Shown in pieces: positions 27,934 to 64,000 of a DNA stretch of 64,000 nt. The stretch comes from Bradyrhizobium sp. sGM-13 (lineage in GTDB: Bacteria; Pseudomonadota; Alphaproteobacteria; Rhizobiales; Xanthobacteraceae), in NCBI RefSeq assembly GCF_018398875.1, contig NZ_JAGWDK010000020.1:62001-126000 (forward strand), in the 5' to 3' direction. The notes beneath the pieces are model-generated. The model ran no database searches and was not told where the DNA came from. It saw only the letters and a list, made by a program, of their open reading frames with translations. The position numbers and the translations under genes are program-made. Each line of letters starts with the position of its first letter. The first letter of the stretch is position 1.

Positions 27934-28019
27934 GACCGGTTCCACGTTGAATATCTGCCGATGCGGTTGAGAATGAATCTATCAGCACCGCAAGCGTGTA
28001 TGATCTGGGCTTGCGTCAG

Positions 28020-28034
28020 TTAGATGGATTCTAA
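28020..28034. promoter_or_regulatory. Candidate Irr/ICE-like iron-control palindrome
   Basis: ttagat-gga-ttctaa fits the rhizobial Irr-binding ICE consensus TTTAGAA-N3-TTCTAAA with one inner mismatch and two outer ones. It lies 75 bases upstream of the phosphopantetheinyl transferase start, at the left border of the siderophore locus. Confidence 0.45.
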
Positions 28035-28109
28035 GTCAGATCACCTCTACCACAGGGCCTACATCCGGGGGTTGCATACCGTTGTACATTGGTCAATAAG
28101 CCCGTGGAC

Positions 28110-28934
28110 ATGACCAACTCCCTGAAGGCTCGACAACGACCATTTGCCGCATCGCTTTCAATGGCGCGTGCAAGCGTCTCCCTCGCGTGGTCGATCGCCG
28201 TTAAATGCGCGACTCCGCGGGATCAATTGCGCGTGCGATGCTTGGGCGATGCGGATATCTCGAGGCCGGTCGGACAGTTGGAACCGGAAGAGATCGTTCT
28301 CTGGCTAGCGGCGATACCTCCATCGCGGGAGATCGCTACCGGAGAACCCGCCATGCTCAGCGTCGATCGAGCTGCGAAAGTACTCGATGCCGATGAGATC
28401 GATCGCATGGGGCGATTTCTGCACATCGAAGATCGAACGAGCTATCTGGCTGCGCATGCGGGCGTTCGCCTCATGCTTGGCGGGCTTGTCGGTCAACCGG
28501 CCGAAGCCCTGCGGTTTCAGCCATCGGAGCATGGCAAGCCCATGCTCATTGCTGGCCCAGTGGAGATCGACTTCAGCCTGAGCCACGCGAGGGGCAGTGT
28601 GGCCGTTGCAGCGGCCCGCATGCCGATTGGCGTCGATATCGAACCGCTGCGGGAAATCGTCGATATGGATTCGGTCGCCGAAATCGTTCTGGCGGCAGAA
28701 GAGCGGGAGGTTCTACAGAACGCTCCCGCGGCGCGTCGGTCCCAGCTCTTTCTTCGCTACTGGACCCTCAAGGAAGCCTTGCTGAAGGCGGCCGCCCTCG
28801 GATTCACGATAGCTCCGAACAGCGTGATCGTCGACGCGGGCCCGTCACCCGCCGTGCTGTCGGTGCCGGCCGCGCTTGGATCGGCCGCTCAGTGGCGATT
28901 CATCGCGCCCGCCATCCGACGCCCTACGCGATGA
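28110..28934 (+). CDS. 4'-phosphopantetheinyl transferase (Sfp type)
   Basis: About 274 residues from ATG 28110; a TTG seven codons earlier and internal Met codons are alternatives, and no start has a strong ribosome site. The Sfp signature is clear: PVEIDFSLSHARGSVAVAAA, then MPIGVDIEPLREI (Mg-binding Asp/Glu), and LRYWTLKEALLKAAALGF (the WxxKEAxxK motif). The enzyme attaches the 4'-phosphopantetheine arm of CoA to carrier domains. It is needed to activate the carrier domains of the neighbouring NRPSs. Its 3' end overlaps the convergent hydroxylase gene by 11 bases. The candidate ICE-like site upstream suggests iron control. Confidence 0.88.
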   Translation: MTNSLKARQRPFAASLSMARASVSLAWSIAVKCATPRDQLRVRCLGDADISRPVGQLEPEEIVLWLAAIPPSREIATGEPAMLSVDRAAKVLDADEIDRMGRFLHIEDRTSYLAAHAGVRLMLGGLVGQPAEALRFQPSEHGKPMLIAGPVEIDFSLSHARGSVAVAAARMPIGVDIEPLREIVDMDSVAEIVLAAEEREVLQNAPAARRSQLFLRYWTLKEALLKAAALGFTIAPNSVIVDAGPSPAVLSVPAALGSAAQWRFIAPAIRRPTR

Positions 28935-30222
28935 GCTCGCGGCGCGAAATCGTCGAAAGCAGCGATTCTGCGATTTCCTGCGAGCGCGTGGCAAGGACGG
29001 AGAGCAGCGTGTCGCTCAGGCCGTGAGAGGCCTCCGAATATCCCTGGAGATGGATTTGCGGCCGAAATGCCGGAGTGGTGACGAGCTTGTAGTTGCGGTC
29101 CAACACGGTGTCGCGAATGTAGCGCTGGATCGGCTCCAGAAACGCATGCGGCGTCTCCCTGTCATAGCCCGTCGCCAGAATGACGGCATCGTAGGTGGAT
29201 CGGCGCTCTGCACCGCCGAACTTGTCAACTGTGCCGATCTCGATGCCTTCAGGTGCGGCATCTGTACTCGTTATTTCGCTACGCGGGTGCAACGCGATCC
29301 CTGTCGTGCCGCTGACGCGCTGCTGGTAGAGCAATCGATACAACTGGTCGAGGAGGTCGGAATCGACCACCGCATAGTTCGTGTTCCGGAAATTGCGAAC
29401 GATCGCATCTCGCCGCTCGGCAGGCTGCGCGTAGATGAAATCGGTGTAATCAGGATTGAAAATCTCGTTGACGAACGGGCTGCTGTCGGACGGCTTCAAA
29501 GCATGGCCGCGAAAGATCAGATCAATGCTCGCGTCCGGAAATCGCCCGCGAAGGTCGACCGTCACCTCGGTCGCGCTCTGCCCTCCTCCGACCACGGCCA
29601 CGCGCGCGGCCTTTCCGTCGAGGCCGATGTCATCGACCGTGTCGAGATAGCGGCTGGAATGCAACAATCTCGGATCATCGGCGATCTCTACAAATACTTG
29701 TGGGATATACGGTCGCCCTCCCACCGCGACCACCAGGTTCCTTGCAAGCCGCACCGTTTCCCCGTCGGCGAGCGTTCGTGAATGAACGCGCAAGGACGTC
29801 ACCGACTGCCCGACGGTCACCGGCTCAATGGCGACGATGGTCTCGCCGTAGGCCGCCTGAGACTTGAACTGGGCTGCTACCCACCGCAGATAGTCGTTGA
29901 ATTCAATCCGGCTCGGATAGAACGTTCGGCAGTTGATGAAATCCTGCAAACGGCCGCGCTTGTGCAGATAGTTCACGAAGGTGAACGGACTGGTCGGATC
30001 ACGCAACGAAACGAGGTCCTTGAGAAACGAGATCTGCATGTCGCTGCCTGGAAGCAGCATGCCGCCGTGCCAGGTGAATTGCGGCTGCTTCTCCACGAAC
30101 AGAGCGGCGCATTTCAGACGTGATCTTCTGGCGCATTCATCCAATGCGATCGCAAGCGCAAGATTGGACGGCCCGAATCCGACGCCGATAACGTCGTGCT
30201 CGATCGCAAACTGGTGAGACAT
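28924..30222 (-). CDS. L-ornithine N5-monooxygenase (PvdA/VbsO-like)
   Basis: About 432 residues from ATG 30222 (MSHQFAIEHDVIGVGFGPSNLA), with cggag upstream. The FAD site GVGFGPSNLALAIAL, the PGSDMQISFLKDLVSLRDPTSPFTF substrate/FAD block, the NADPH site VVGGGQSATEV and the ATGYDRETP motif define the siderophore N-hydroxylase family. It converts ornithine to N5-hydroxyornithine, the precursor of hydroxamate ligands. Lysine hydroxylases are close relatives, so the amino acid is inferred from context. It is 20 bases downstream of the acyltransferase gene and forms an operon with it. Confidence 0.9.
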   Translation of the reverse strand: MSHQFAIEHDVIGVGFGPSNLALAIALDECARRSRLKCAALFVEKQPQFTWHGGMLLPGSDMQISFLKDLVSLRDPTSPFTFVNYLHKRGRLQDFINCRTFYPSRIEFNDYLRWVAAQFKSQAAYGETIVAIEPVTVGQSVTSLRVHSRTLADGETVRLARNLVVAVGGRPYIPQVFVEIADDPRLLHSSRYLDTVDDIGLDGKAARVAVVGGGQSATEVTVDLRGRFPDASIDLIFRGHALKPSDSSPFVNEIFNPDYTDFIYAQPAERRDAIVRNFRNTNYAVVDSDLLDQLYRLLYQQRVSGTTGIALHPRSEITSTDAAPEGIEIGTVDKFGGAERRSTYDAVILATGYDRETPHAFLEPIQRYIRDTVLDRNYKLVTTPAFRPQIHLQGYSEASHGLSDTLLSVLATRSQEIAESLLSTISRRELIA

Positions 30223-30242
30223 AGCTGCGCTCCGTTCGGGCG

Positions 30243-31304
30243 TTAGGACGTGGTCGCCGGGCTGGTCGCTGCCGGCAGCCACAGCCGGTCACCAAAGAAG
30301 CGTTCGCGCAACAGCATCACGAGCGTGGCCCGCTTGTGCGGAAAATCGAAGTTCTTGATCTTTGCGAATCCCGAGACTTCCAGATTGCGGAGCTGCTGCG
30401 CATGCGCCGCCGCCGGCTCGCCGACGATCCGTTGCGTTCGACAATCGTCCAGGAACATGTAGTGCATCAGCGATGGCAGCCAGGCGCTGATATAGCGGCG
30501 CCCGCGATAGGCGTCCTCGCCGACGACGACATGCCAGCCGCGATCGTAATCGTCGGCATCGTAGAACGGCGCGATACGATTCTCCTTGGCCCAGTAGAGC
30601 TCGAAATAGCCAAACGGCTCGTCGTCGAAGCAGCCGATGAGCGGCAGCATGTGCGGGTCCGCCAGGATGCCGGAGAGATAACGCCGATGCTTCTCGAGAT
30701 CGCCCGCTTCGTTCCAGAACGCGTCGACACGGGGATCGTTCATCCACCGGTGCAGCAGATGCAGGTCACCGTCCACGTTGGCGACGCGAAAGGAGATCAC
30801 TTCGGCGAGCCAGGGTATGAAGCGGGCATAGACCTTCCCCACCGGCTTTGGCGAGCGTCGCGGATGGCGCTTGCCGTCCGTCATGACGTGGAGTTGCGGC
30901 AATGGCGGCCGTTTGGCATTGACCAGCCAATTGTCCCGCCGCTGCATGATCAGTTCGGGAAGCAGCACGAAGTCTGCCCCCGCCATGAGAGCGAGACCGT
31001 GGTTCATCAGCTCGCGCGCAAGCTCCACGCTGGCTGACTCCAGCACAAGCCGGTCAAGTGTCGGCCGCCATCCAAAAATGGCTTCGGCCGCCGCCGAAAT
31101 CGCCGAGATCGCCAGTTGCGGATCGTCAGGAGTGGTCAATATTCTTAGATGACCGAGCTGTTCATCGAGACGCAGGCGCATCACCGTCGTGATGCCTACA
31201 GCGATGCGGAGATCTCCCCCACCGTCTTGAACGACGGTCAAGGAAAAATCCGGTCCGATCGGGAATGCGCGAGGCCCCGTCGCGGAGCTCGAAGCTTTGT
31301 TCAT
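30243..31304 (-). CDS. Siderophore acyltransferase, IucB/VbsA-like GNAT (N-hydroxyornithine acylation)
   Basis: About 353 residues from ATG 31304 (MNKASSSATGPRAF). The C-terminal half is a GNAT domain of the IucB/VbsA/PvdYII group: LHRWMNDPRVDAFWNEAG, GCFDDEPFGYFELYWAKENRIAPFYDADDYDRGWHVVVG and RRYISAWLPSLMHYMFLDDCRTQRIVGEP. The N-terminal half is a poorly conserved extension typical of the family. It is predicted to acetylate or otherwise acylate the N5-hydroxyl-amine to complete the hydroxamate; no formyltransferase gene is in the window, so an acyl rather than formyl hydroxamate is inferred. First gene of a two-gene unit with the hydroxylase. Confidence 0.85.
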   Translation of the reverse strand: MNKASSSATGPRAFPIGPDFSLTVVQDGGGDLRIAVGITTVMRLRLDEQLGHLRILTTPDDPQLAISAISAAAEAIFGWRPTLDRLVLESASVELARELMNHGLALMAGADFVLLPELIMQRRDNWLVNAKRPPLPQLHVMTDGKRHPRRSPKPVGKVYARFIPWLAEVISFRVANVDGDLHLLHRWMNDPRVDAFWNEAGDLEKHRRYLSGILADPHMLPLIGCFDDEPFGYFELYWAKENRIAPFYDADDYDRGWHVVVGEDAYRGRRYISAWLPSLMHYMFLDDCRTQRIVGEPAAAHAQQLRNLEVSGFAKIKNFDFPHKRATLVMLLRERFFGDRLWLPAATSPATTS

Positions 31305-31417
31305 CCGGCCCTCGCATCGCAAGCGTGGTTGCTTGAAACAGCACGCGATCTTGACGCGCGCCTGCGATGTAAAGCACTCGCGTACAGGATGACAAGAAAT
31401 GCAGGCACACGCAGTTT

Positions 31418-31434
31418 AGATTTCTTACAAATCT
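31418..31434. promoter_or_regulatory. Inverted repeat upstream of the acyltransferase-hydroxylase unit
   Basis: agattt-cttac-aaatct lies about 115 bases upstream of the acyltransferase start in a 229-base AT-richer gap. It does not fit the ICE consensus. It could be an operator or a promoter-associated site; no factor can be named. Confidence 0.25.
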
Positions 31435-31533
31435 GACAAAACGGCGTCGCCAAAGACATCGCACGCGTTCCCCGGCGCGCATCTCGAAAGAGCCTGAACT
31501 TCGATGCAAATTTTCCGGAAGAATAAAATAGCT

Positions 31534-33237
31534 CTAAAGAGATGCGTCGGTTGGAACCGATGACGACTTGATGATGTCATGGGTTTTCGCATCGCCCGCG
31601 ACAATTTTGCCGTGCCGCAGTCGCACCAGATGATCAGCCACACCGAAATAACGGTCATCATGTGAGATCACGATGATCGTCTTGCCCATGCGCTTCAGGT
31701 CCGGCAGCAGTTCCGTGTAAAAAATATGCCGGAAGGCAGGGTCCTGATCCGCGGCCCACTCGTCGAACACGAGTACCGGCCTCTCCTCGAGCCAGGCATT
31801 CATCAGGGCCAGCCGCTTGCGTTGACCGGTCGACAGGTCCGTCGTCGTAAACACGCCATTCTCGACCGAGACCTTATGCGCGACCTCCAACCGCTGCAGA
31901 TAGCGCTCCGCGACGTCAGGCACCATTCGCGCTCCCTGCAGAAGATCTTCGAACAGGTAATAGTCGGAAAAGATTGTCGTGAAGAGCTGCCGGTAATCAT
32001 CCCGCGTTTCCGTCACGACGGGCAGACCGTCGCGAAGCAACGTACCGCTCTGTGGCGCGTAGAGACCCAGCAGCAACTTGATCAGCGTGGTTTTTCCGCT
32101 TCCGTTTTCACCGACAATGAAAACGATGTCTCCCTGCCGGACGTGCAGGTCAATCGGTCCGAGAACGAAGGGGTTGCTGCCGGGCACCGCGCGGAAGCCG
32201 TACGATACGCCACGGAGCTCGATCGATTCGATCCTGCCTGATCCATCCGGCGCGACCGAGGGCGCGGCCAGCAAGCCCTGCTCTGGCGTCGCGAACTGCT
32301 CCGAAAGCTCGGCGATCCGCTTCATCGCCACTTGCGCGCGGCCCAATGCCGGCAGGATGCCGATCACCTGATCGATAGGCCCTCGCATATAGAGCAGCAC
32401 CAGGACGAAGCCGCTGGAGACGGCGGCCGGGCTGTCAGGCCAGAGGAACGGACGCAACGTCAGCGCGACGCCGATCACGACGAAGAACAACATCGTACCC
32501 AACGCCCGCGCGGTCACAAAGAGGTTGATCGATTTGATCTGCACCGCGCTGATCCGGTCGACGGTGCGCTGAAGCTGGTCGACATAGACGCGCTGACGGC
32601 GGGCGCGGTTCAGGCGCAGCTCCTTCGCGCCCTCGGCGATCGCGCGGTAGTGCTTCTGCAACTGGTCTTCGGAATCGCGGGCGACGTTGAAGCCCTGAAC
32701 GCCGCGCGTTCGCGCATATGCATGCGCGAGCGAGCCGAGAACGATGACCAGCCCCGTGATCAGGAAAAGCGGCCACGACAGCACCGCCAGGTAGACCATG
32801 CAGCCGAGCGTGATGACCACGGACACGAAGAAGGAGGAGAAGAAGAACGCGAAATCGCTGATGGTGTCGACGTCATGGGTGAGGACCGGAATCAATCGAT
32901 GCGTCCGGTAGATTTCGAGCTGATCGATCGGGGCCGCCAGAATTTTCGCGGCGAGCGACTTGCGCAGCTCGGCGATGATCCGCTGTCCAACATAGTTGGC
33001 GCTGATATCGGCGCCGATCGAGCCGATCAGGATCAGGAGACACAGGCCCGCAAACGCGAACAGCAGCGTGGCGACGTCGTCTTGCGACGCGTAAAGTCCG
33101 CGATTGACGACTGCGAGCAGTCCCGCAACGCTGGCGCCACCGACAACGCCGAGAACGGTGCCGCCCAGCACGATCGGCCAGTAGGGCCGCAGGAGATGCA
33201 GAATCTGCGCCGTCAGGCCGCTTCGTGGATTCATCAT
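31534..33237 (-). CDS. Cyclic-peptide/siderophore export ABC transporter (PvdE-like)
   Basis: About 567 residues from ATG 33237; ATG 33321 is an in-frame alternative. The N-terminal half is a six-helix transmembrane domain and the C-terminal half one ATPase, i.e. a half-transporter that should dimerise. Walker A is GENGSGKTTLIK, the signature reads LSTGQRKRLAL, and Walker B with switch region is VLVFDEWAADQDPAFR, which is characteristic of the PvdE/cyclic-peptide-export group. PvdE moves the pyoverdine precursor across the inner membrane. Here it most likely exports the NRPS product. It is divergent from the siderophore-interacting protein gene. Confidence 0.88.
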   Translation of the reverse strand: MMNPRSGLTAQILHLLRPYWPIVLGGTVLGVVGGASVAGLLAVVNRGLYASQDDVATLLFAFAGLCLLILIGSIGADISANYVGQRIIAELRKSLAAKILAAPIDQLEIYRTHRLIPVLTHDVDTISDFAFFFSSFFVSVVITLGCMVYLAVLSWPLFLITGLVIVLGSLAHAYARTRGVQGFNVARDSEDQLQKHYRAIAEGAKELRLNRARRQRVYVDQLQRTVDRISAVQIKSINLFVTARALGTMLFFVVIGVALTLRPFLWPDSPAAVSSGFVLVLLYMRGPIDQVIGILPALGRAQVAMKRIAELSEQFATPEQGLLAAPSVAPDGSGRIESIELRGVSYGFRAVPGSNPFVLGPIDLHVRQGDIVFIVGENGSGKTTLIKLLLGLYAPQSGTLLRDGLPVVTETRDDYRQLFTTIFSDYYLFEDLLQGARMVPDVAERYLQRLEVAHKVSVENGVFTTTDLSTGQRKRLALMNAWLEERPVLVFDEWAADQDPAFRHIFYTELLPDLKRMGKTIIVISHDDRYFGVADHLVRLRHGKIVAGDAKTHDIIKSSSVPTDASL

Positions 33238-33362
33238 GAGTGCCGCGCTGGAGTAGAGCTGAAGCGAACCTACACGGCCCGTCGTAATACGAATAGCCTT
33301 GCGGGAGTGATGCGAATACATGATGGCAGCATCGCTCTTCCGGAGCTTATTTTTCGGCCTCT

Positions 33363-33377
33363 TTCGATCGATTCTAA
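33363..33377. promoter_or_regulatory. Candidate Irr/ICE-like site in the exporter/SIP divergent gap
   Basis: ttcgat-cga-ttctaa fits the ICE half-sites TTAGAA-N3-TTCTAA at 10 of 12 positions. It lies in the 325-base gap between two divergent iron genes. The rest of the gap holds a 17-base tandem repeat and no gene. Confidence 0.35.
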
Positions 33378-33448
33378 TTTGTGATCGGCAACGCGTTTAA
33401 TAAAATGCGAGTAGTAGAGCCTTTGCGTCGCAGCCGGCGAGCGAGTGG

Positions 33449-33496
33449 GACATGGATCCACTAGGGACTTGGATCCACTAGCGACATGGATCCGGT
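33449..33496. repeat. 17-base tandem repeat, 2.8 copies
   Basis: Units are gacatggatccactagg (33449-33465), gacttggatccactagc (33466-33482) and a partial gacatggatccggt (33483-33496). It lies 67-114 bases upstream of the siderophore-interacting protein gene. The role is unknown. Confidence 0.7.
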
Positions 33497-33562
33497 GTCG
33501 GGCTGCGATATCCGGAAATCGAAGCGTGCGCAGGCCAGCATCGGGCAGGCCCGACTGGAGAG

Positions 33563-34630
33563 ATGACCTTGGATTCGCTTGTTTCCGAAACCCGCATCCC
33601 AATTGCTGATGCCGCCGGCCTTGCTGCCCGAATGATCGATCACCTTGCCGAGCATGATATCGCCTTCGAGAACCAAGGTGGCCTGATGGTGGCGAAGCTG
33701 CCGTTTGGAACCAGTTCGCTGGCCGTCGAGGCCGAGGCGCTCAGGATCCGCGTCGAGGCCAACGACAAGGGCAATCTGGAAATGCTGCGCTCGGTCGTCG
33801 CTTCCCACGTCATCGAGTTCGCCGGCGATGAGCCGCCGATCATCGTCTGGTCCGGCCATGAATCGAACGGCGGCATGCTGGCCAATTTCCGCGAGGTGCG
33901 GCTGAAGGCAGCGATCGACCTGACGCCCCGGATGCGCCGGCTGACCTTCACCGGCGACGACATCGTCCGCTTCGTGAACGACGATGACCTGCACGTCCGC
34001 CTGTATTTTCCGCCCGAAGGGCTCGCCAAGCCTGAATGGCCGTGGCCCGCGCCCGACGGGCGCATCCTGTGGCCGGAACCGGAGCGCAGACCCGTCACCC
34101 GCTACTACACGATCCGCCGCATCGATCTGCAGGCTTGCGAGATCGATATCGATTTCGTGGTCCACGATCACGCCGGACCGGGCTCGGCCTTTGCTCTCAA
34201 TGCGCAAACCGGCGCCATTTGCGGCATGGCCGGTCCGCTCGGACGAGGCATTCGGCCGGCGCGCTGGTTGCTGCTGGCGGGCGACGAGACCGCCCTTCCC
34301 GCCATTGCGCGAATTCTTGAGATGCTGCCAGCGACGGCAACTGGTGAAGTCTTCATCGAAGTCGCCGACCGGCTTGAAGAGGTTCCGCTGATCGCACCAG
34401 CCGGCGTATCGATCCAATGGCTTCATCGCAGCGACCGTCCGGCCGGGACGACGCAGCTATTAGTCGATGCCGTCAAGGCTGTGCGATGGCCGGATCATCG
34501 CGAGGTCTTTGCATGGGTCGCGTGCGAAGCGCAGGCGTTGAAGGCGCTGCGAAGCCATCTGCGTGACGAGCGGAAGCTCGCCCGCGAGCAGCATCTTGCG
34601 GTCGCGTATTGGAGCCTGCGGCAGCCATGA
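33563..34630 (+). CDS. DUF2218-siderophore-interacting protein fusion (ferric-siderophore reductase)
   Basis: A 355-residue protein with two parts. Residues about 1-100 look like a DUF2218 domain (IDHLAEHDIAFENQGGLMVAKLPFG ... LRSVVASHVIEFAG). Residues about 110-355 form a ViuB/SIP-type FAD-binding reductase: RMRRLTFTGDD, RPVTRYYTIRRID (FAD binding), FVVHDHAGPGSAFA and WLLLAGDETALPAIARIL (NAD(P)H side). The C-terminal region WVACEAQALKALRSHLR is typical. The family reduces Fe(III) from imported siderophores in the cytoplasm. It is followed 64 bases later by FhuC and is divergent from the exporter. Confidence 0.85.
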   Translation: MTLDSLVSETRIPIADAAGLAARMIDHLAEHDIAFENQGGLMVAKLPFGTSSLAVEAEALRIRVEANDKGNLEMLRSVVASHVIEFAGDEPPIIVWSGHESNGGMLANFREVRLKAAIDLTPRMRRLTFTGDDIVRFVNDDDLHVRLYFPPEGLAKPEWPWPAPDGRILWPEPERRPVTRYYTIRRIDLQACEIDIDFVVHDHAGPGSAFALNAQTGAICGMAGPLGRGIRPARWLLLAGDETALPAIARILEMLPATATGEVFIEVADRLEEVPLIAPAGVSIQWLHRSDRPAGTTQLLVDAVKAVRWPDHREVFAWVACEAQALKALRSHLRDERKLAREQHLAVAYWSLRQP

Positions 34631-34694
34631 CGCATCCGCAGGCCGACGGGACAACATTCACCTCGCACCGCATTACCCCCGCAGGCACTTTCTC

Positions 34695-35519
34695 ATGCAT
34701 GTAGTTCGGCCAACCGAAATCGCGCAGGCCGCGCCCGATGCGGCCGCGCCCTTGTTCGAACTGGACCAGGTGGAGTTCGCTGTGGCGGGCCGCGCGCTGC
34801 TCGAACCGCTCACTCTCTCGCTTCCCGCGCGCAGCGTCGTCGGCCTGATCGGGCACAACGGCTCCGGCAAATCGACTTTGCTGAAGTTGCTGGCGCGGCA
34901 GCAGCCAAGCTCATCCGGCACGATCCGGTTCGAAGGCCGCGCTTTACGCGAATGGAGCGATCGGGAGTACGCCCGCAAGGTCGCCTATCTGCCGCAGCAG
35001 ACGCCGCCAGCCGCCGGCATGCTGGTGAAGGAGTTGGTCGCGCTCGGGCGCTATCCCTGGCACGGCGCGCTGGGCCGGTTCGGCGACACCGACCGCGACA
35101 AGGTTGCGGAAGCCATGGCGCTGACCCACATCGAGCCGTTTGCGGACCGGCTGGTCGATACATTGTCAGGCGGCGAGCGCCAGCGGGTCTGGATCGCCAT
35201 GCTGGTTGCGCAGGATGCCGAATGCCTGCTGCTCGACGAGCCGACTTCGGCGCTCGACATTGCCCATCAGATCGAAGTGCTGTCGCTGGTGAAGCGGCTC
35301 GCGCGGGAGCGCAATCTCGGCGTGGTCGTCGTGCTCCATGATGTCAACATGGCAGCACGCTTCTGCAACGAGATCATCGCCCTGCACTCGGGCAAGCTGA
35401 TTTCGCGCGGCGCGCCGGATAAGATCATGACGCCTACCGAACTCGAAACCATCTACGGCATTCCGATGGCGGTGATGCCGTCTCCGGATCACAGCCATCT
35501 CATCAGCTTCGCACCGTGA
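34695..35519 (+). CDS. fhuC: Iron-hydroxamate ABC importer ATPase (FhuC-like)
   Basis: About 274 residues from ATG 34695 (MHVVRPTEIAQ); the frame is open upstream but overlaps the SIP gene. Walker A is GHNGSGKSTLLKLL, the signature LSGGERQRVWIAML, and Walker B CLLLDEPTSALDIAHQ. EWSDREYARKVAYLPQ is typical of FhuC/FecE ATPases. It powers uptake through the double-length FhuB encoded on the opposite strand 13 bases away. The convergent layout of fhuC against fhuB is unusual, as these genes normally share one operon. Confidence 0.88.
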   Translation: MHVVRPTEIAQAAPDAAAPLFELDQVEFAVAGRALLEPLTLSLPARSVVGLIGHNGSGKSTLLKLLARQQPSSSGTIRFEGRALREWSDREYARKVAYLPQQTPPAAGMLVKELVALGRYPWHGALGRFGDTDRDKVAEAMALTHIEPFADRLVDTLSGGERQRVWIAMLVAQDAECLLLDEPTSALDIAHQIEVLSLVKRLARERNLGVVVVLHDVNMAARFCNEIIALHSGKLISRGAPDKIMTPTELETIYGIPMAVMPSPDHSHLISFAP

Positions 35520-35532
35520 GCACTTCACCGTC

Positions 35533-38461: not shown

Positions 38462-38510
38462 GGGGTGCGGCTCGGGAACGGCTTGCGGCGAGGCTGCGAG
38501 AGACGGGAGT

Positions 38511-38527
38511 TATGACATAGCGTCATA
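38511..38527. promoter_or_regulatory. Palindrome upstream of the FhuD-like gene
   Basis: tatgac-atagc-gtcata lies 50-66 bases upstream of the FhuD-like start, inside the 76-base gap after the esterase gene. The sequence tcatatgc repeats nearby. It may be an operator for a separate fhuDB promoter; it is not an obvious Irr or Fur site. Confidence 0.3.
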
Positions 38528-38537
38528 TGCCATACCT

Positions 38538-39542: not shown

Positions 39543-39550
39543 GCGAATGT

Positions 39551-55993: not shown

Positions 55994-58900
55994 CGGAAAG
56001 TTCGACTTCCTTCAACATGTCGAGCATCGCGGCGATGTCGTCGCCGCGCTTATCGACCTGAATCTCCGGGGCAAGCGCAGCGGCCATCGTCTCGATGGTC
56101 GTCATTTCAAACAGGCGGTTCAGCGGCAGGTCATGGCCGAGATCGCGCTTGATGCGGCTGACGAGCTGGACGGCGGTGAGAGAGTCGCCGCCGAGCTCGA
56201 AGAAATTATCGGTGACGCCGATATTGGGCTGGCGCATCAGGTCGGCCCAGATCGCGGCCAGCGCCGCTTCCACCGGCGTACGCGGCGCCACGTGCTCGGT
56301 TGATGTCGCGAACTGGTCCGGCGCCGGCAGCGCCTTGCGGTCGATCTTGCCGTTCGGTGTCAGGGGCAGCCGGTCCAGCACCACGACCCTTGCCGGCACC
56401 ATGTAGTCCGGCAATGCCGACGACAGCGCGGGCTTGAGAGCTGTCCCGTCCAACGACGTTTCACCGCTGACATAGCCGACGAGCTGGCGGGCAGCGCCAA
56501 TCTCGCGCGCCACCACCACCGCCGAGCGCACGCCATCCTGCTCCAACAGCCGCGCCTCGATCTCGCCGAGCTCGATCCGAAAACCGCGGATCTTCACCTG
56601 GTGGTCGGCGCGGCCGATATACTCGATCACCCCATCGGCGCGCCATCGCGCCACGTCGCCGGTGCGGTACAGCCGCGCCCCTGGCGGGCCGAACGGATCG
56701 GGGATGAAGCGTTCCGCGCTCAGCGCGCCGCGCTGCCAGTAGCCGCGTGCAAGTCCTGCACCGCCGATATAGAGCTCGCCCGCAACGCCGACCGGCGCGA
56801 GATTGAGGTCGTTGTCCAAAATATGCAGCGTGGTGTTGCCGATCGGGCCGCCCAGAAGCGGACGGTCGTCCTTGGCATCGAGGCGGTGGCGGGCCGACCA
56901 CACCGTGGTCTCGGTCGGACCATACAGGTTCCAGACCTCGCCGGCCTGCGCCACCAGCCGCCGCGCCAGGTCCGGCGGCAAGGCCTCGCCGCCGCACAGC
57001 ACGCGGCAGCTTGGGGGCAGTGGTGGGCCGTCATGATCAAGCAGCATCCGCCAAGTCGAGGGCGTCGCCTGGATCAGGGTGACGCCATGCCTGACCACCA
57101 TGGCCTTGAGGCGCGACGGATCATGCGCCGCGGCGCGATCGGCCAGCACTACGCATGCCCCGAGCGTGAGTGGCAGCCAGAGCTCCAGCACCGCGATGTC
57201 GAACGACAACGAGGTCAGGCCGAGCACACGATCCTGGGCCGTCATGCCCGGCCGCTCCGCCATGGTCGCCAAAAAGTTCGTCACCGCGTCATGGCGGACC
57301 ATCACGCCCTTGGGCAGGCCGGTCGAGCCGGAGGTGTAGATCACATAGGCGAGGCTTTCGGGATGGACGATGACATCAAGATTGCCGCCGTCACCGCCCT
57401 CGCCGCTGTCATTCTCGTCGAGCAGCCACGCCTCGGCGCCGGTCTCCTCCAGCACTGGGGCAAACTGTTCCAGCAGCATCCGCTGCGTCAGCACCAGCGC
57501 CGCGCCGCTGTCGCGCAGCATGTGCGCCAGCCGCTCTGCCGGGTAATCCGGATCGAGCGGCAGATAGGCCCCGCCCGCCTTCAACACAGCGAGCAGCGCG
57601 ACCATCATCTCGACGCCGCGCTCCAGCGCCAGCCCCACCACCACGTCGGTTCCGACGCCGCGATCGCGCAGCCGCCGCGCCAGCCGGTTGGCGCGCGCGT
57701 TCAACGCGCGATAGCTCAGCTCCTTATCGCCAAACACCAGCGCAACAGCGTCCGGAGATTGATCGACCTGTGCCTCGAACGGTTCGATAAACGAGCGGTC
57801 CCGTGGATATTGCGCCTGCGTCCGATTCCACGTCTCCAGCAAAAGCTGGCGCTCTTCGTCAGGCAGAACATCCAGTTGCCGCACCGGAGAGCGAGGCGCG
57901 CGCTCCAGCGTCTCCGCCACTTGATCGAGCGCCTGCTGCATCAAGGCGCAGATGCGATCGGCCGAGAGCGGATGGACGACCTGAGCGGTTAACCCGAGCG
58001 CATTACCACAATCCTCGACCGCCATCATCAAGGGATAGTTCGTACGCTCTTCGCCGCCGAGCCACTCGACGCCCTGTAGGCCTGCGCCGCCCTGCCCCGT
58101 GGACGAAGCCGCCGGCATCGCATTGTGACGGTAGTTCAAGATCGAACTGAACAGGGGTGCGGGCGCGGCGACACCGCTGCATCGCTGCGCGAGCGGCAGC
58201 GAGGCATGTTCATGTGCCATCAGCTCGGTCAACCTTGCGTGGGCATGACGAACGCTGTCTTCAACCGCGGTGTCATCGAGATCAAGCCGCAGCGGCAATG
58301 TATTGATGAACAGCCCCATGGTGCGGTCGCCGCCGGCGCCCGCATGCATTCGGCCGAACAGAACCGTGCCGAACACGACGCGCTCACGCCCGCTGCTTCG
58401 CGCCACCACCTGTCCCCAGGCGAGATGGCAGAGGCTGGCAAGGCTCACCCCCAGCCGCCGTGCCAGAGCGCGGAGCCGTGCATTGAGCTGTTCCGGCAGC
58501 GTTCGCCGCGCTTCCGCCACACCGCCACCGTCGCCATGCACGCGATCCAGCCCAAACGGCGTGGTCGGCTCATCGATATCAGAGAGCATGCCTCGGAAGA
58601 AGCGCTCGTGCTCCGCGATGGCGGCCGATCCTCGCGACTGCGCCACCAGATTTCGGAACTGATAGGGAGCCGGAAGCTCATGACTACGCCCAGACAATAT
58701 CTTCTGCACTTCGTCGTGCATCACCTCCAGCGTGGAGTGATCGCCGATCAAATGATGCAGCAACACCAAAAGCAGCCAGCGCTCCTTGCCCGGATCGCGC
58801 GCGATTGCAAACCGCAGCAGCGGCGCCTGGCCAAGGTCGATCCGATGGCGGCGCGGGTCGAAACGCCGCGCAAGCTGCTCATGCGCCGGGCTCTCGCGGT

Positions 58901-61900
58901 CCAGCGCGACCTCGGTGATGACTACAGTAGCCCGCCGCCAAACCACCTGCGCCGGAGCGGATAGCCCCTCCCATGCAATGGACGTGCGGAGAATATCGTG
59001 CCGGTCGATGACCTGCTGAACGGCGGCGAGATAACGGTCGATCAAGTCGCGGCTTGCGAACGCCATCTGGCCGATCAGTAAATATGGATCGCCCTGTGCC
59101 GACAGCAGATGGTGAAACAGGATGCCATCCTGAAGCGGCGATAGCCCGTAGATGTCCTGGATGTTGGCGATGCCGCCGGGCACGTTGGCCACGATGCTGT
59201 CGATGTCGGATTGCTTCAACGCGATCAACGGCAACAGCTCGGGCGTAATCGCCGTCGTCTGCGACGTGATCAGATTGGCCGGAACAGCCGCGCCGACGCC
59301 GCCGTTGAGGCTGGCGGCGAAATCGGCGAGCACGGGATTGGCGAACAGCGCGCGTACATCGGCGCTCAGCGAATGCCGCTGCAGGCGTTCCAGCATGCGG
59401 ACCGCGAGCAGCGAGTGGCCACCCAGTTCAAAGAAGTGATCGTTGCGTCCGATATGATCGACGCCGAGCAGCTCGGTCCAGATCTTTGCGACGATCTCCT
59501 CGATCTCGCCCTGCGCCGGCTCGAAACTGCGCCTTGCAAAGGCATCATCCTCCGGCGCAGGCAGCGTCTTGCGATCGACCTTGCCGTTCGGCGTCAGCGG
59601 CAGTGTATCCAGGCGTACGAATGCCGACGGCACCATGTAGTCCGGCAAGCGCTCACGGAGGTGATTGCGCATCGCAGCCGCAAATTCACCGGCATCACGC
59701 TTCACGCCGTCGTCCTTCGCGGCCACATAGGCGACCAGCCGCGGGTCACCGCTGTGGTCCCGCAGCGCCAGCACCACCGCATCGGTCACGCCGATGTGCT
59801 CATTAAGGCGAAACTCGATCTCGCCCAATTCGATGCGGAAGCCGCGGATTTTTACCTGATGATCGTTGCGGCCGAGGAACGCGATGTTGCCATCCGGCAG
59901 GTAGCGTCCGAGATCGCCGCTGCGATACATCCGCGCGTTAGCGTCGCTACTGAAGGGGTCGCGCACGAAACGTTCCGCCGTCAGGTCGGTGCGATTGAGA
60001 TACCCGCGGGCTACTCCTGCCCCGCCGATGTAGATCTCGCCGGTCGGACCGAGCGGAACGGGCGCACCGAAGCTATCAAGCAGATAGATCCGTGTATTGG
60101 GAAGCGGACGACCGATCGGGACGACGTCGCCATCAAAGCCGGCCGGCCGCAGCCAACTGGTAGCGCAGACCGTCGTTTCCGTCGGCCCGTAGCCATTGAA
60201 GACGGCAACGCCAGGCGGCAGATCCCTGATCAGTTCCGCCTTGGGCAATTCGCCGGCGAGGACGAGCACCCGCAGCGACACCAGCCTGTCGAGATCATTC
60301 CGCCCCTGCAGCATGGCCGGCGGCAAGGTCGCGTGCGTAATGGCGTTGTCCGAGAGGAGATCAAGCAGCTCCGACGTATTGCGGTGCTCTCGCGGGCCAA
60401 CGAGAAACAGCTCGGCCCCCGAGCACAGCGCCATGATAATTTCCCAAGTGCTGGCGTCGAAGCTGAACGAAGCAAACTGCACGATGCGGCTGCGTTGGGA
60501 AACGTCAAACAGCGCTCGCTGCGCCAGCGCCAGATTTACCAGGCCGCGATGCTCGACCATCACCCCCTTTGGCCGGCCGGTAGATCCGGAAGTGTAGATG
60601 ATGTAAGCGAGATGCCGTGACGTAAGTCCCATGACAAGGTCACCGGGATCTGACGCCGACAGACTAGCGACGGTGGCTGCGCTCGCCTCCAGATCGACAA
60701 TCTTGCACGCCACATTCGCGAAGATTGTGCGTCCGGCATCGTCAACGATCAACAATCCCGGGCTTGCATCCTCGACGATCTGACGCAGCCGCTCCGCCGG
60801 ATAGGCCGGATCCAGCGGCAGATAAGCGCCGCCCGCCTTCAGCACGGCCAGCAGGCTGACGATCATGGCGATGCCGCGCTCCAGGCAGATCGCGACCGGC
60901 TGATCCGGACCGACGCCCAAAGCGATCAGGTGCCGTGCGAGCTGATTGGCCTTCGCATCAAGTTCGCCATAGCTCAGGCGAACGTCCTCATGAACCAGCG
61001 CCGTGGTTTCGGACGCGGTTCGGACCTGCTCTGCGAACAGTTCGTGGATGCAGCGCTCCGATGGGAACGGCGCAGCCGTTTCGTTCCATGTGTCCAAAAG
61101 GAGCTTGCGTTCCTCCTGGCCGACAATATCGATCCGGTCGACGATTTGATCCGCGTCGATGACCATGGCCCGCAGCAAGACGAGCAGATAGTCCCGGTGA
61201 CGCTTCATCGTCGCTTCGTCGAACAGTGCCGTTGCATAGTTCAAGGCGCCGACGATGCGGCCGTCCGCTTCGCCCAGATTCAGCTCGAGATCGAACTTGA
61301 CCTGCTGCAGCGGAATATCGGCAATCTCGGCCTTGAGACCTGGTAACTCAACGATTGCCGCCTCGTTGTTCTGCCAGGCAAACACGACCTGAAAGACCGG
61401 CGTATGCTCCAGCCGCCGCGGCGGCTGAACGATCTCGACGAGTTGCTCGAACGGCAGATCCTGATGATCCTGAGCTTCGAGCGCCGCAGCGCGCACGCGG
61501 CTGAGCAATTCAGCCACATCAGGCTCTCCCGACAAATCGACGCGGAGCGCCAGCATGTTGACGAAGAAGCCGACCAGGCCTTCGATTTCGCGCCTGTTGC
61601 GGTTTGCCGTCGGCGTGCCGATCACAATATCGGTCTGCCCGGAAAGTCTTGATAACACCGCCGCCCAGGCCGCCAGCACCGTCATGAATGCCGTCGCGCG
61701 GCGCGACTGGCTGAATAGCCTGATGCGATGCGCAAGCCCGGCGTCGATCTCGATCGGCAATGACGCGCCGGCGAGAGACCTGACCGGCGGCCGCGGCCGG
61801 TCTGTCGGCAGTTCGAGCACCGCGGGAGCGCCCGCGAGTGCCTGCCGCCAATAGTCGACCTGCCGCTGCAACCGCTCGCCCGCCAGCCATTGCCGTTGCC

Positions 61901-62573
61901 AGGCAGCGTAGTCCGGGTACTGAATTGCCAGCGGCGGCAACGGATCGTTTTGGCCCGCTGTGAAGGCTCGGTAAAGCGCGCCAAGCTCGCGCACGAGCAC
62001 GCCCATCGACCAGCCGTCGGATATGATGTGATGCTGGGTGAGCAGGAACAGATCCTTCTTCTCCGCCGTCCGGATCAGGCGTCCCCGGATCAATGGTCCC
62101 GCGGCGAGATCGAACGGCGTATCGGCCTCCTCGCGGCACAAGCGCGCGAGTTCGTGTTCGGCATCCAGGCGTTGCCGCAAATCATGTTCGAGCACCGGCA
62201 GGCACGCATCGGCCGGCAGCAGTTCAACGCAAGGCTTTCCATCGACCACGCGGAAGACACTGCGCAGCGCTTCGTGACGCGCAAACAACCGATCAAGGCT
62301 GCTACGCCATGCACCGACATCGAGATCACCCGCGAGGCGCAAAGCGCCGCGAATGTGATAGTTGGCGTTGGCGCCATCGAGTTGCGCCAGCAACCAAAGC
62401 CGCTGCTGGGCAAAGGACAATTCCAGCGGCCCGCCGCGCGGCACCGCCGGAATCGAGGAGATTCCAACCTTGCTGGCAGTTCGACCGCGATCTCTCGCCA
62501 GCGACAGGAGCTTTTTCACCTGTGCGGAATCCAGATCACGCAAACCTGGCTTTGATGGTTCCGCCATGTTCAC
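55986..62573 (-). CDS. Two-module NRPS: C-A-T-C-A-T
   Basis: A 2195-residue middle assembly-line enzyme. Approximate positions: C1 HHIISDG 181; A1 core 659; T1 LGGHSLL 1051; C2 start 1141 (IYGLSPLQDGILFHHLL), active site LLHHLIGDHSTL 1273; A2 core 1744; T2 LGGDSL 2128. Pocket residues by eye: A1 DAWTVAGVCK, close to the known Phe code DAWTIAAICK; A2 DILALGLVWK, close to the Gly code. There are no E domains and no TE, so the chain is passed on. The N-terminus (PGLRDLDSAQVKKLLSLA) and C-terminus (AAMLDMLKEVEL) look like docking segments. Starts and stops overlap both neighbours (4 and 8 bases), giving one transcript ordered as synthesis proceeds. Confidence 0.95.
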   Translation of the reverse strand: MNMAEPSKPGLRDLDSAQVKKLLSLARDRGRTASKVGISSIPAVPRGGPLELSFAQQRLWLLAQLDGANANYHIRGALRLAGDLDVGAWRSSLDRLFARHEALRSVFRVVDGKPCVELLPADACLPVLEHDLRQRLDAEHELARLCREEADTPFDLAAGPLIRGRLIRTAEKKDLFLLTQHHIISDGWSMGVLVRELGALYRAFTAGQNDPLPPLAIQYPDYAAWQRQWLAGERLQRQVDYWRQALAGAPAVLELPTDRPRPPVRSLAGASLPIEIDAGLAHRIRLFSQSRRATAFMTVLAAWAAVLSRLSGQTDIVIGTPTANRNRREIEGLVGFFVNMLALRVDLSGEPDVAELLSRVRAAALEAQDHQDLPFEQLVEIVQPPRRLEHTPVFQVVFAWQNNEAAIVELPGLKAEIADIPLQQVKFDLELNLGEADGRIVGALNYATALFDEATMKRHRDYLLVLLRAMVIDADQIVDRIDIVGQEERKLLLDTWNETAAPFPSERCIHELFAEQVRTASETTALVHEDVRLSYGELDAKANQLARHLIALGVGPDQPVAICLERGIAMIVSLLAVLKAGGAYLPLDPAYPAERLRQIVEDASPGLLIVDDAGRTIFANVACKIVDLEASAATVASLSASDPGDLVMGLTSRHLAYIIYTSGSTGRPKGVMVEHRGLVNLALAQRALFDVSQRSRIVQFASFSFDASTWEIIMALCSGAELFLVGPREHRNTSELLDLLSDNAITHATLPPAMLQGRNDLDRLVSLRVLVLAGELPKAELIRDLPPGVAVFNGYGPTETTVCATSWLRPAGFDGDVVPIGRPLPNTRIYLLDSFGAPVPLGPTGEIYIGGAGVARGYLNRTDLTAERFVRDPFSSDANARMYRSGDLGRYLPDGNIAFLGRNDHQVKIRGFRIELGEIEFRLNEHIGVTDAVVLALRDHSGDPRLVAYVAAKDDGVKRDAGEFAAAMRNHLRERLPDYMVPSAFVRLDTLPLTPNGKVDRKTLPAPEDDAFARRSFEPAQGEIEEIVAKIWTELLGVDHIGRNDHFFELGGHSLLAVRMLERLQRHSLSADVRALFANPVLADFAASLNGGVGAAVPANLITSQTTAITPELLPLIALKQSDIDSIVANVPGGIANIQDIYGLSPLQDGILFHHLLSAQGDPYLLIGQMAFASRDLIDRYLAAVQQVIDRHDILRTSIAWEGLSAPAQVVWRRATVVITEVALDRESPAHEQLARRFDPRRHRIDLGQAPLLRFAIARDPGKERWLLLVLLHHLIGDHSTLEVMHDEVQKILSGRSHELPAPYQFRNLVAQSRGSAAIAEHERFFRGMLSDIDEPTTPFGLDRVHGDGGGVAEARRTLPEQLNARLRALARRLGVSLASLCHLAWGQVVARSSGRERVVFGTVLFGRMHAGAGGDRTMGLFINTLPLRLDLDDTAVEDSVRHAHARLTELMAHEHASLPLAQRCSGVAAPAPLFSSILNYRHNAMPAASSTGQGGAGLQGVEWLGGEERTNYPLMMAVEDCGNALGLTAQVVHPLSADRICALMQQALDQVAETLERAPRSPVRQLDVLPDEERQLLLETWNRTQAQYPRDRSFIEPFEAQVDQSPDAVALVFGDKELSYRALNARANRLARRLRDRGVGTDVVVGLALERGVEMMVALLAVLKAGGAYLPLDPDYPAERLAHMLRDSGAALVLTQRMLLEQFAPVLEETGAEAWLLDENDSGEGGDGGNLDVIVHPESLAYVIYTSGSTGLPKGVMVRHDAVTNFLATMAERPGMTAQDRVLGLTSLSFDIAVLELWLPLTLGACVVLADRAAAHDPSRLKAMVVRHGVTLIQATPSTWRMLLDHDGPPLPPSCRVLCGGEALPPDLARRLVAQAGEVWNLYGPTETTVWSARHRLDAKDDRPLLGGPIGNTTLHILDNDLNLAPVGVAGELYIGGAGLARGYWQRGALSAERFIPDPFGPPGARLYRTGDVARWRADGVIEYIGRADHQVKIRGFRIELGEIEARLLEQDGVRSAVVVAREIGAARQLVGYVSGETSLDGTALKPALSSALPDYMVPARVVVLDRLPLTPNGKIDRKALPAPDQFATSTEHVAPRTPVEAALAAIWADLMRQPNIGVTDNFFELGGDSLTAVQLVSRIKRDLGHDLPLNRLFEMTTIETMAAALAPEIQVDKRGDDIAAMLDMLKEVELSDE
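56190..57785 (-). repeat. Duplicated Gly-type A-domain segment (copy in the two-module NRPS)
   Basis: This is the partner of 43767-45375. Reading both translations, long blocks are the same or differ by single residues across the whole A domain, with a four-codon length difference in the linker before the A3 core. The downstream carrier half (LTAVQLVSRIKRDLG) is unlike its partner. Confidence 0.75.
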
Positions 62574-64000
62574 TGCCCCGCCGCCATCAGATCCTGGAGC
62601 TCATCGGCATCGAATTCCTGCTCGATCAGCCTGATCGACACGATGCGCGCGAATGACGCGAGGTCGGGATGAACGAACAGATCCGAAACCGGGATCGACA
62701 CGCCGATCTCCTGCGACACCCGGCTGAGCACCCGCACCGCCAGCAGTGAGTGTCCCCCGAGCTCGAAGAAGTGATCGTTGCGTCCGATCTGCTCGACGCC
62801 GAGCAGTTCGGCCCAGATCTTCGCCAGCGCGATCTCGATTTCGTCCTCGGGCGCCTCATAACCGCGGTGGGCCTGGGCATCCTCGTGCGGCGACGGCAAT
62901 GCGCGACGGTCGATCTTGCCATTGGGGGTCAGCGGCAACTTCTCGAGCACCACGATCGTCGATGGCACCATGTAATCAGGCAGAATGGCCGACAGCGCAT
63001 CGCGCAAACCGCCACCGTCAAGCGTCGGCTCGCCGCTGGCATAGGCGATCAACTGACGGCCGGTCCTGCTCTCGCGCGTCACCACGGCGGCGGCGCGTAC
63101 GCCGCGCTGTTCGAGCAGGCGCGCCTCGATCTCTCCCAATTCGATCCGGAAGCCGCGGATCTTCACTTGCTGGTCCGCGCGGCCGACATAGTCGATCACG
63201 CCGTCCACCCGCCACCGCGCAAGATCGCCGGTCCGGTAGAGACGCGCGCCGCTACCGCCGAACGGATCCGGGATAAACCGTTCCGCCGTCAGCGCGCCCC
63301 GGTTCAGATAGCCTCGCGCCAATCCAATACCGCCGATGAACAGCTCGCCGGTAACGCCAACGGGCACGATGTTGAGATCGGCGTCGAGGATATACGCGGA
63401 CCTGGCACCAACGGGCCGCCCGATCGGCGCCGGCTGGCCCGGCGTCAAGGCGACGGCGTCGACGAGCCACGCTGTCGGCGCGATCACCGTTTCGGTCGGG
63501 CCGTAGGCGTTGACCAGAAGGTCGACATCTGCGGCCTGGCGCAGCGCTTTGATTCCGTTATCCGACCACGCCTCGCCGCCGACAATGCAGGTCCTAATCG
63601 AAAGCCGGCGCCCACTCTGCCGCAACGCTGCGCTCAATTGGTCCGCATAGGCCGGCGGCAGAAAGATCGACGTTACCGAGCTTCTCGCAATCTCATCGAC
63701 GAGGTCGATCAATAGACCCGGCCTGGACGGCAGCACGAGCGAGCCACCTGTCATCAGCGGCACCAGCCAGCGCTCGTGGGCAATGTCGAAGTTGATCGAG
63801 GCCGACTGGAATTCCCGGTCGCGCGAAGTCATGCGGTACAACCGGCCGATCGCTTCGCAATGCATGGCCAGCGGCCCATGCGTTACCTGCACGCCCTTCG
63901 GCGTCCCGGTCGAACCCGACGTGTAGATCACGTAGGCCAGACTATCCGGATGAATCTCGAGATTCAGATTGGCTGTATCTTCGCTGACGGGCCGTTGCGG
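62570..64000 (-). CDS. NRPS, partial: A-T end of an upstream assembly-line enzyme
   Basis: The frame is open to the right edge, so the N-terminal part lies outside. Visible are the A domain from LAYVIYTSGSTGTPKG onward (core at about 63905-63930) and a carrier domain with FFELGGHSLLAVRV, then a C-terminal docking-like tail (DADELQDLMAAGQ). Pocket residues by eye are DIEFIGAIAK, which I cannot assign. The A4 region NFDIAHERWL shares the unusual AHER signature with A1 and A4 of the four-module NRPS. The stop overlaps the start of the two-module NRPS in ATGA. It is therefore the most upstream NRPS visible and holds the residue preceding the Phe-like one. Confidence 0.93.
   Translation of the reverse strand, partial: PQRPVSEDTANLNLEIHPDSLAYVIYTSGSTGTPKGVQVTHGPLAMHCEAIGRLYRMTSRDREFQSASINFDIAHERWLVPLMTGGSLVLPSRPGLLIDLVDEIARSSVTSIFLPPAYADQLSAALRQSGRRLSIRTCIVGGEAWSDNGIKALRQAADVDLLVNAYGPTETVIAPTAWLVDAVALTPGQPAPIGRPVGARSAYILDADLNIVPVGVTGELFIGGIGLARGYLNRGALTAERFIPDPFGGSGARLYRTGDLARWRVDGVIDYVGRADQQVKIRGFRIELGEIEARLLEQRGVRAAAVVTRESRTGRQLIAYASGEPTLDGGGLRDALSAILPDYMVPSTIVVLEKLPLTPNGKIDRRALPSPHEDAQAHRGYEAPEDEIEIALAKIWAELLGVEQIGRNDHFFELGGHSLLAVRVLSRVSQEIGVSIPVSDLFVHPDLASFARIVSIRLIEQEFDADELQDLMAAGQ

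Follow-up and report, generated by a model that had tools for sequence, protein, structure and literature searches.

Cupriachelin, taiwachelin, serobactin and potashchelin follow the same logic of fatty acid, β-hydroxyaspartate (β-OH-Asp) and hydroxamate as the locus described here, with other residue orders. The lactuchelins of Pseudomonas lactucae share with it a CAL-type start, a TauD Asp β-hydroxylase, an ornithine N5-oxygenase, an N-acyltransferase, epimerization (E) domains, a thioesterase (TE) and a TonB receptor (PMC12904278). The locus lies in a 64,000-nucleotide stretch of Bradyrhizobium sp. sGM-13 (the window), bases 62,001–126,000 of a 140,312-b contig in an 8.3-Mb draft genome; the contig right of the window was also read (L009), and coordinates below are on the window scale (L009 + 60,000). 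With a probability of roughly 0.85, its genes make an acylated mixed β-OH-Asp/hydroxamate lipopeptide siderophore and form a self-contained iron-uptake system. The cluster measures ~49 kb, from a phosphopantetheinyl transferase (PPTase) gene at 28,089 to the end of a TonB receptor gene at ~77,164; the window holds the left part (28,089–64,000), and the cluster ends ~13 kb right of the window edge on the same contig. Gene content, domain order, specificity codes, conservation and iron boxes are direct readings of the sequence. The locus is real, complete and conserved, belongs to a known kind of system, has an apparently undescribed peptide and bears unusually plain marks of module remodelling.

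Three nonribosomal peptide synthetase (NRPS) genes on the minus strand form the assembly line: NRPS1 (62,570 to 72,364, right of the window; 3,264 aa), NRPS2 (55,986–62,573; 2,195 aa) and NRPS3 (39,551–55,993; 5,480 aa). Motif scans and hidden Markov models built on the window's own domains, with approximate module bounds, resolved condensation (C), adenylation (A), peptidyl carrier protein (PCP), E and TE domains. NRPS1 reads FAAL-PCP/C-A1-PCP-E/C-A2-PCP, NRPS2 C-A3-PCP/dual E/C-A4-PCP, and NRPS3 C-A5-PCP-E/C-A6-PCP-E/C-A7-PCP/C-A8-PCP-TE, giving eight amino-acid modules and a fatty-acyl-AMP ligase (FAAL) loading module. Pfam counts agree with this order, save for one E domain cut where NRPS3 was divided into halves for the scan. 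The first 596 aa of NRPS1 find PDB entry 7r7g ('Polyketide synthase') as best match (9.3e-129), followed by the long-chain-fatty-acid-AMP ligases FadD23 (1.3e-92) and FadD32 (7e-85).

The nine-position A-domain codes assign most residues. Module 1, outside the window and equipped with an E domain, carries DLTKIGHVG (Asp); module 2 carries DIEFIGAIA (a divergent code of hOrn type; hOrn, N5-hydroxyornithine), the window ending within it (C-terminal part of NRPS1, 62,570–64,000), with FAAL-PCP and C-A(Asp)-PCP-E further right. Modules 3 (59,334–62,423) and 4 (56,073–59,216) carry DAWTVAGVC (Phe) and DILQLGLVW (Gly). On NRPS3, module 5 (51,343–55,840) carries DGEGSGGVT (hOrn), module 6 (46,795–51,343) DVWHFGRIN (Ser-like), module 7 (43,687–46,795) again DILQLGLVW, its A domain sharing 92% identity with the module-4 one, and module 8 (39,551–43,560), the last, again DGEGSGGVT. 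The Asp, Phe and Gly assignments follow published codes. DGEGSGGVTK is among the codes for modified ornithine (PMC12283262). The module-6 A core is 57% identical to an Azotobacter A domain of Ser-type code DVWHLSLID, with the next class at 34%; module 6 may take Ser or a Ser-like residue, an unsure call.

Stereochemistry follows from the E and dual domains. All three E domains retain HHxxxDGVSW, with HHxxxDG intact. The module-4 C domain has HHLLSAQGD near its N-terminus, which fits the HH[I/L]xxxxGD motif that marks dual E/C domains (PMC1894796); it acts after Phe, and D-Phe is therefore predicted. C domains downstream of E domains in the window have one motif type, common also to the C domain after the achiral module-7 Gly. 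From these features we infer substrates and stereochemistry, and the predicted product is acyl–D-β-OH-Asp–L-hOrn-type–D-Phe–Gly–D-hOrn–D-Ser(-like)–Gly–L-hOrn.

In the proposed pathway, the NRPS1 FAAL would activate a fatty acid and start the chain, the three NRPSs would extend it to eight residues, and the terminal TE would release it. Asp would be hydroxylated by a TauD-family enzyme, a putative Asp β-hydroxylase (72,373–73,365, outside the window) whose gene adjoins NRPS1; the Asp code of module 1 and this adjacent gene together predict the β-hydroxylation. A hydroxylase search of named genomes, from which the best 80 of 258 relatives were kept as loci, placed an Asp-type A domain and a TauD gene in the same locus in 74/80; in the remaining six, the portions read of L065, L066, L082 and L094 contain no Asp-type A domain, the code in L112 is a different one, and L113 yields no readable code. 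Beside the hOrn modules, the cluster encodes a PvdA-like L-ornithine N5-monooxygenase (28,924–30,282, minus strand; Pfam Lys_Orn_oxgnase, 3.1e-115; best PDB relative 3s5w, L-ornithine 5-monooxygenase, 5.7e-132) and an N5-hydroxyornithine acyltransferase (30,243–31,322, minus strand; GNAT, Acetyltransf_8, SidF/MbtK-like; Pfam 4.3e-56; best PDB relative SidF 7qf6, 3e-51). Ornithine would be N5-hydroxylated by the former and then N-acylated by the latter, forming hydroxamates; the last hOrn may instead cyclise at release.

Export would be through a PvdE-type pump (31,534–33,321, minus strand; TIGR01194 cyclic peptide export ABC transporter, 684.6 bits against a cut-off of 286.2). The iron complex would return through the TonB receptor (74,687–77,164, outside the window, L009:14687-17164), which closes the gene block, and through FhuBCD, with iron freed by a SIP-family ferric-siderophore reductase with N-terminal DUF2218 (33,563–34,630, plus strand). 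The FhuC-type ATPase (34,563–35,519, plus strand) has FhuC as best NCBIfam match at 397 bits, under its cut-off of 433; the fused FhuB-type permease (35,533–37,605, minus strand) matches NCBIfam FhuB NF007866 at 724 bits (cut-off 554); the FhuD-type periplasmic binding protein (37,526–38,461, minus strand) matches Pfam Peripla_BP_2 and, best in NCBIfam, FhuD at 224.6 bits, under its cut-off of 252. An Sfp-type PPTase (28,089–28,934, plus strand; Pfam ACPS 1.2e-15), a type II TE (73,310–74,053) and an MbtH match (74,148–74,297, flanked by the type II TE and receptor genes), the latter two outside the window, complete the set, together with an HSL-type esterase of unassigned role (38,538–39,554, minus strand; Pfam Abhydrolase_3, 1.7e-74). 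The MbtH match is the only one in the genome, and 11/17 condensation-family matches of the genome fall within the cluster.

The original prediction, made on the window, had described a hydroxamate siderophore locus; this is real and larger than noted, extending beyond the window. Every gene it named (PPTase, N-hydroxylase, acyltransferase, exporter, SIP, FhuC, FhuB, FhuD, esterase and three NRPS genes) was found, and the gene families support the synthesis, export and import functions it assigned. Its count of at least seven modules is correct for the window, the full line having eight and the FAAL loading module, and the hOrn-type A domains it expected are those with DGEGSGGVT at modules 5 and 8. 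The upstream NRPS start and the TonB receptor, which it proposed to look for on the right, are both present. Code extraction upheld its order X-Phe-Gly-D-hOrn-D-Ser-Gly-hOrn, with Ser still unsure; the Phe stands as a code, and its D configuration, indicated by the dual E/C domain after it, had been missed. The term 'peptide hydroxamate' holds for the hydroxamate part and is incomplete, because the FAAL starter, Asp module and TauD hydroxylase lie outside the window; acylated β-OH-Asp/hydroxamate would be the better label.

Conservation was assessed in 146 genus genomes (cut-offs E ≤ 1e-30 for TauD and E ≤ 1e-120 for the ornithine oxygenase). TauD occurs in 27 and the oxygenase in 26. Among the 27 TauD holders, the oxygenase lies on the same contig at 42.9–43.5 kb in 18, at 30.8 kb in two and at 37.6 kb in one; five have it on a different contig, and one has no such oxygenase. 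The constant spacing in 18/27 holders indicates that the locus is not a chance assembly. Seventeen clusters were read fully, the window's and 16 others. The eight-module line is present in 15: in 13, line and codes are those of the window except for changes of single residues, and in two (BTAi1 and G145) the architecture is kept with Gly at module 2. In the other two, B. yuanmingense CCBAU 10071 and B. diazoefficiens SZCCT0449, the line is five modules long, Asp–DIEFIGAIA–Phe–Gly–hOrn. Across the 80 loci, module 2 reads DIEFIGAIA in 22 and DILQLGLVW in four. The TauD gene of the window's genome is 97–98% identical to the copies of B. murdochi, B. retamae and Bradyrhizobium sp. LMTR 3, bearing out the earlier attribution of the window to a Bradyrhizobium-type genome.

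A 2025 survey (PMC12815270) labelled Bradyrhizobium NRPS-siderophore genes malleobactin, found mbaABCH in 41/278 genomes with mbaE absent, and doubted that these clusters make malleobactins; by gene content and frequency, they are probably the present clusters. These observations would suit a decayed or step-lacking malleobactin/phymabactin-type cluster, as antiSMASH labels suggested, that yields no functional siderophore. This is very unlikely given the FAAL start, the eight modules and NRPS frames that are unbroken in 16/17 clusters, the exception being jicamae (one of the 13), whose NRPS2 stops short of its final PCP, perhaps through a sequence error. In the clusters looked at, the C and E motifs are likewise intact, save the HHxxxDH of the dual domain, and a formyltransferase would be dispensable because an N-acyltransferase is present.

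Iron boxes accompany the cluster. The scan used TTTAGAANNNTTCTAAA, which we take to be the iron control element (ICE) consensus, and allowed up to 3 mismatches. Three ICE-like boxes with 3 mismatches each lie in the window, against 0.22 expected, all in cluster promoter gaps: at 28,019–28,035, 70 b before the PPTase gene; at 31,415–31,431, before the acyltransferase/ornithine-oxygenase pair; and at 33,362–33,378, between the divergent exporter and SIP genes. A fourth, with 1 mismatch, lies at 77,205–77,221 outside the window, 41 b before the TonB receptor gene. The 17 clusters together hold 64 ICE-like sites against 0.8 expected from order-2 Markov sequences (five per cluster), and 62 of the 64 lie at most 450 b upstream of a cluster or flanking-gene homologue. 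ICE boxes exist and are bound by Irr (PMC3413700); the consensus letters were not found in the available parts of that article or of PMC10374146. Iron probably controls the cluster, and Irr would be its regulator.

Several observations weigh against a functional siderophore of the predicted structure. No compound has been seen so far, and the product, predicted from genes, is unproven. Bradyrhizobium strains seldom secrete siderophores in culture (PMC12815270): of six tested there, only B. yuanmingense CCBAU25021, which has a putative dimethylcoprogen cluster, was a producer. A full-text literature search did not find the codes DIEFIGAIA and DVWHFGRIN in print. The module-4 active-site motif is HHLIGDH (HHxxGDH), missing the last Gly of HHxxxDG, in 5/5 clusters compared. 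If module 2 takes hOrn, the product would have four bidentate groups, one above iron's need. BTAi1 and G145 give zero iron-box matches at up to 3 mismatches, and the BTAi1 stretch has no match to SIP, FhuB, FhuC, FhuD or the receptor.

FAAL-started lipopeptides rich in D-residues are often surfactants, and the absence of the import block (SIP, FhuBCD) beside the BTAi1 line would fit a surfactant or antibiotic lipopeptide with iron genes as chance neighbours. The company that the line keeps makes this scarcely credible: the oxygenase, N-acyltransferase and exporter stay with it in jicamae, yuanmingense, BRP22 and BTAi1, the TonB receptor, FhuBCD and SIP stay with it in the first three, and iron boxes precede the cluster operons. 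The accessory set (oxygenase, acyltransferase, exporter, SIP, FhuC, FhuB, FhuD, esterase, TauD, type II TE and receptor) is complete in the jicamae, yuanmingense and BRP22 stretches; that of BTAi1 has the oxygenase, acyltransferase, exporter, esterase, TauD and TE. The esterase is thus matched in all four, and the PPTase in jicamae and BRP22, with no match in the yuanmingense and BTAi1 stretches.

Within the siderophore reading, the short line can probably be traced to the Gly modules. Along the five-module NRPS of B. yuanmingense, identity tracks NRPS2 as far as the A domain of module 4 and, starting at the end of module 7's A domain, NRPS3. In each of 15 genomes, these two Gly A domains share 92–100% identity with each other; with the corresponding domain of the window's genome, each shares 77–93%. 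The surplus within a genome is clear in distant genomes (BTAi1: 99% between its own two, 77–78% to those of the window's genome) and small or missing in the closest ones (retamae and murdochi). Greater likeness within than between genomes is a sign of gene conversion, pointing to concerted evolution of the two Gly A domains inside one NRPS line. The most plausible reading is therefore that the short line arose by fusion of Gly modules 4 and 7, with loss of modules 5 and 6 and the greater part of 7. On an NRPS1 tree of 18 rows, the short form forces two changes; gene transfer is possible, and L044 has no assigned architecture, so that the five-module line may have arisen once or twice.

Module 2 is itself a mosaic. 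The N-terminal part of its A domain resembles the line's Gly and Ser-like A domains (up to 85%), the core is only 15–35% identical to the Gly A domains, and the C-terminal part is close to several modules, including module 5 (up to 92%), a pattern that fits replacement of the A-domain core. The core is 39–44% identical to hOrn-type A domains and at most 34% to Phe, Gly, Asp, Ser-like, Thr, diaminobutyrate and other assigned classes; the comparison set was partly picked by similarity to this core, and hOrn domains picked otherwise give 41–42%. A core donor was sought in plasmids (400 records) and in 385 genomes of the class, and none was found: the top plasmid places are 44–45% identical, and the three genomes with a match at 1e-15 are the window's own, one of the genus and a third of the same order at 46%. 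The change at module 2 would have run from Gly to hOrn.

Donor-atom counts bear on the residue at module 2. With hOrn there, the short line would offer β-OH-Asp and two hydroxamates, exactly six donor atoms; a BTAi1-type product would also have six, and the window type eight. The window-type line thus either has one ligand group to spare or takes another residue at module 2. Under the latter option, module 2 would take Orn or an unrelated amino acid, and the long product would be an ordinary hexadentate siderophore (β-OH-Asp and two hydroxamates). Its code differs from DGEGSGGVT at 6/9 positions, BTAi1 and G145 with their module-2 Gly need no third hydroxamate, and a Methylomagnum domain of unassigned code, DADDTGAIT, matches the core as closely (44%) as the nearest hOrn-type domain. 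We regard this option as doubtful, since the assigned domains nearest to the core are hOrn-type, Glu239 is common to the module-2 and hOrn codes, and the short line reaches six donor atoms only if module 2 chelates. Tentatively, the long line may instead make a siderophore with four bidentate ligands (β-OH-Asp and three N-hydroxyornithines) and represent an evolutionary intermediate: A-core replacement would have turned module 2 from Gly to hOrn, Gly-module recombination would then have removed the original chelating modules from certain lineages to leave a minimal hexadentate pentapeptide, and plug and barrel of the receptor would have changed hands as a cassette, uncoupled from the peptide.

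Receptor exchange was examined in 27 clusters (the window's and 26 loci, L034–L053, L057, L058, L073 and L089 among them), and a receptor was obtained from 25. The receptors form two classes, A with 17 rows and B with 8, and the receptor tree shows each as a single clade (100/100). Mapped onto the tree of the neighbouring TauD and type II TE genes, these classes need six changes, at least five of them forced by well-supported branches. The window's cluster and that of B. retamae are 98% identical in both neighbour genes and 64% in the receptor; in 1-kb DNA windows over 27–77 kb, identity is 87–97%, except in the last two (75–77 kb) at 72–74%. Against same-class B. murdochi, 75–77 kb is likewise lowest, at 78–84%, and the receptor therefore also drifts fast within a class. 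Residues 1–120 are not class-specific (74% between, 73–74% within); the plug is 72% identical between classes versus 89–93% within, and the barrel 53% versus 77–79%, comparisons that exclude six more distant class-A rows of the 17. Receptor class does not track the peptide: retamae and jicamae (B) carry the same codes as the window, and each of the two short lines has one of the classes. Plug and barrel have been swapped repeatedly between otherwise similar clusters; ligand specificity may be the driver, or else evasion of phages or bacteriocins.

Related clusters occur outside the genus. Nitrobacter vulgaris and Nitrobacter sp. Nb-311A (L049, L050) have the same NRPS1 with DIEFIGAIA at module 2, TauD at 85–86% and the ornithine oxygenase at 83% identity; from these three genes, a lipopeptide siderophore is predicted in these nitrite oxidisers. 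Pandoraea aquatica (L129–L131) has a related cluster of another order: FAAL, hOrn(E), Asp, Thr, hOrn(E), an unassigned module (DVWCVAMVY) and Asp-TE. Within the genus, one genome (G070:C291:26211-28240) has two adjacent TauD-family stretches (46–48%), one inside a 1,435-aa frame, and no close ornithine oxygenase; the stretches perhaps belong to a different β-hydroxy-amino-acid NRPS.

In the window's own genome, contigs C34 and C28 (L136, L137) carry two more NRPS frames (2,170 and 2,221 aa) with two condensation matches each. Adjoining the cluster, a 153-aa open reading frame (ORF; 27,484–27,945, minus strand) has no Pfam match and has homologues in four other clusters (47–69% identical); an ICE-like box lies upstream of these homologues in several clusters. 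Another ORF, 33,461–34,426 (minus strand), was judged spurious: it has no Pfam family match and overlaps the SIP gene.

Few siderophores are attributed to Bradyrhizobium, a dominant genus of soils and nodules, and the present reading offers a predicted structure and mass for each of three chemotypes. Assuming a C12:0 acyl chain, acetylated hydroxamates, Ser at module 6 and cyclisation of the C-terminal hOrn, the neutral mass would be 1135.576 for the eight-module product, 819.438 for the five-module product and 1020.513 for the BTAi1 type with Gly at module 2, the linear acids being heavier by 18.011. The activity of B. yuanmingense may stem from the five-module form, carried by CCBAU 10071, the active strain being CCBAU25021. 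The cluster further documents natural NRPS re-engineering: a substrate switch, fused modules and receptors traded among similar clusters.

Among known systems, malleobactin, ornibactin and phymabactin share ornithine oxygenase and hydroxylase genes with the locus. They are tetrapeptides from two NRPSs (four modules), have no FAAL start and carry formyl or acetyl on hOrn; eight modules and a FAAL start set the present line apart from that family. Vicibactin of Rhizobium shares hOrn activation and N-acyl-hydroxyornithine and is a cyclic trimer from a single iterative hOrn module, unlike this eight-module linear line. Pyoverdines were also rejected, the first residues here being Asp and hOrn-type rather than chromophore-forming. 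As in the original prediction, no known siderophore was found to match the residue order, and a literature search, with most subscription journals and MIBiG outside its scope, found no lipopeptide siderophore of Bradyrhizobium or structure for one. We likewise infer a new structure, malleobactin-labelled Bradyrhizobium NRPS genes being already in print, though left unresolved there (PMC12815270). Potashchelin shares the FAAL, TauD, dual C domains and a terminal cyclic hOrn (PMC7100376), and differs in being a nonapeptide rich in Ser made with no E domains. A Pseudomonas lactucae locus is among the hydroxylase relatives, at 63% identity. The available text of PMC12904278 notes no Phe in lactuchelins, in contrast to the Phe module here, and, on the features described there, lactuchelin is the closest described architecture among the systems compared.

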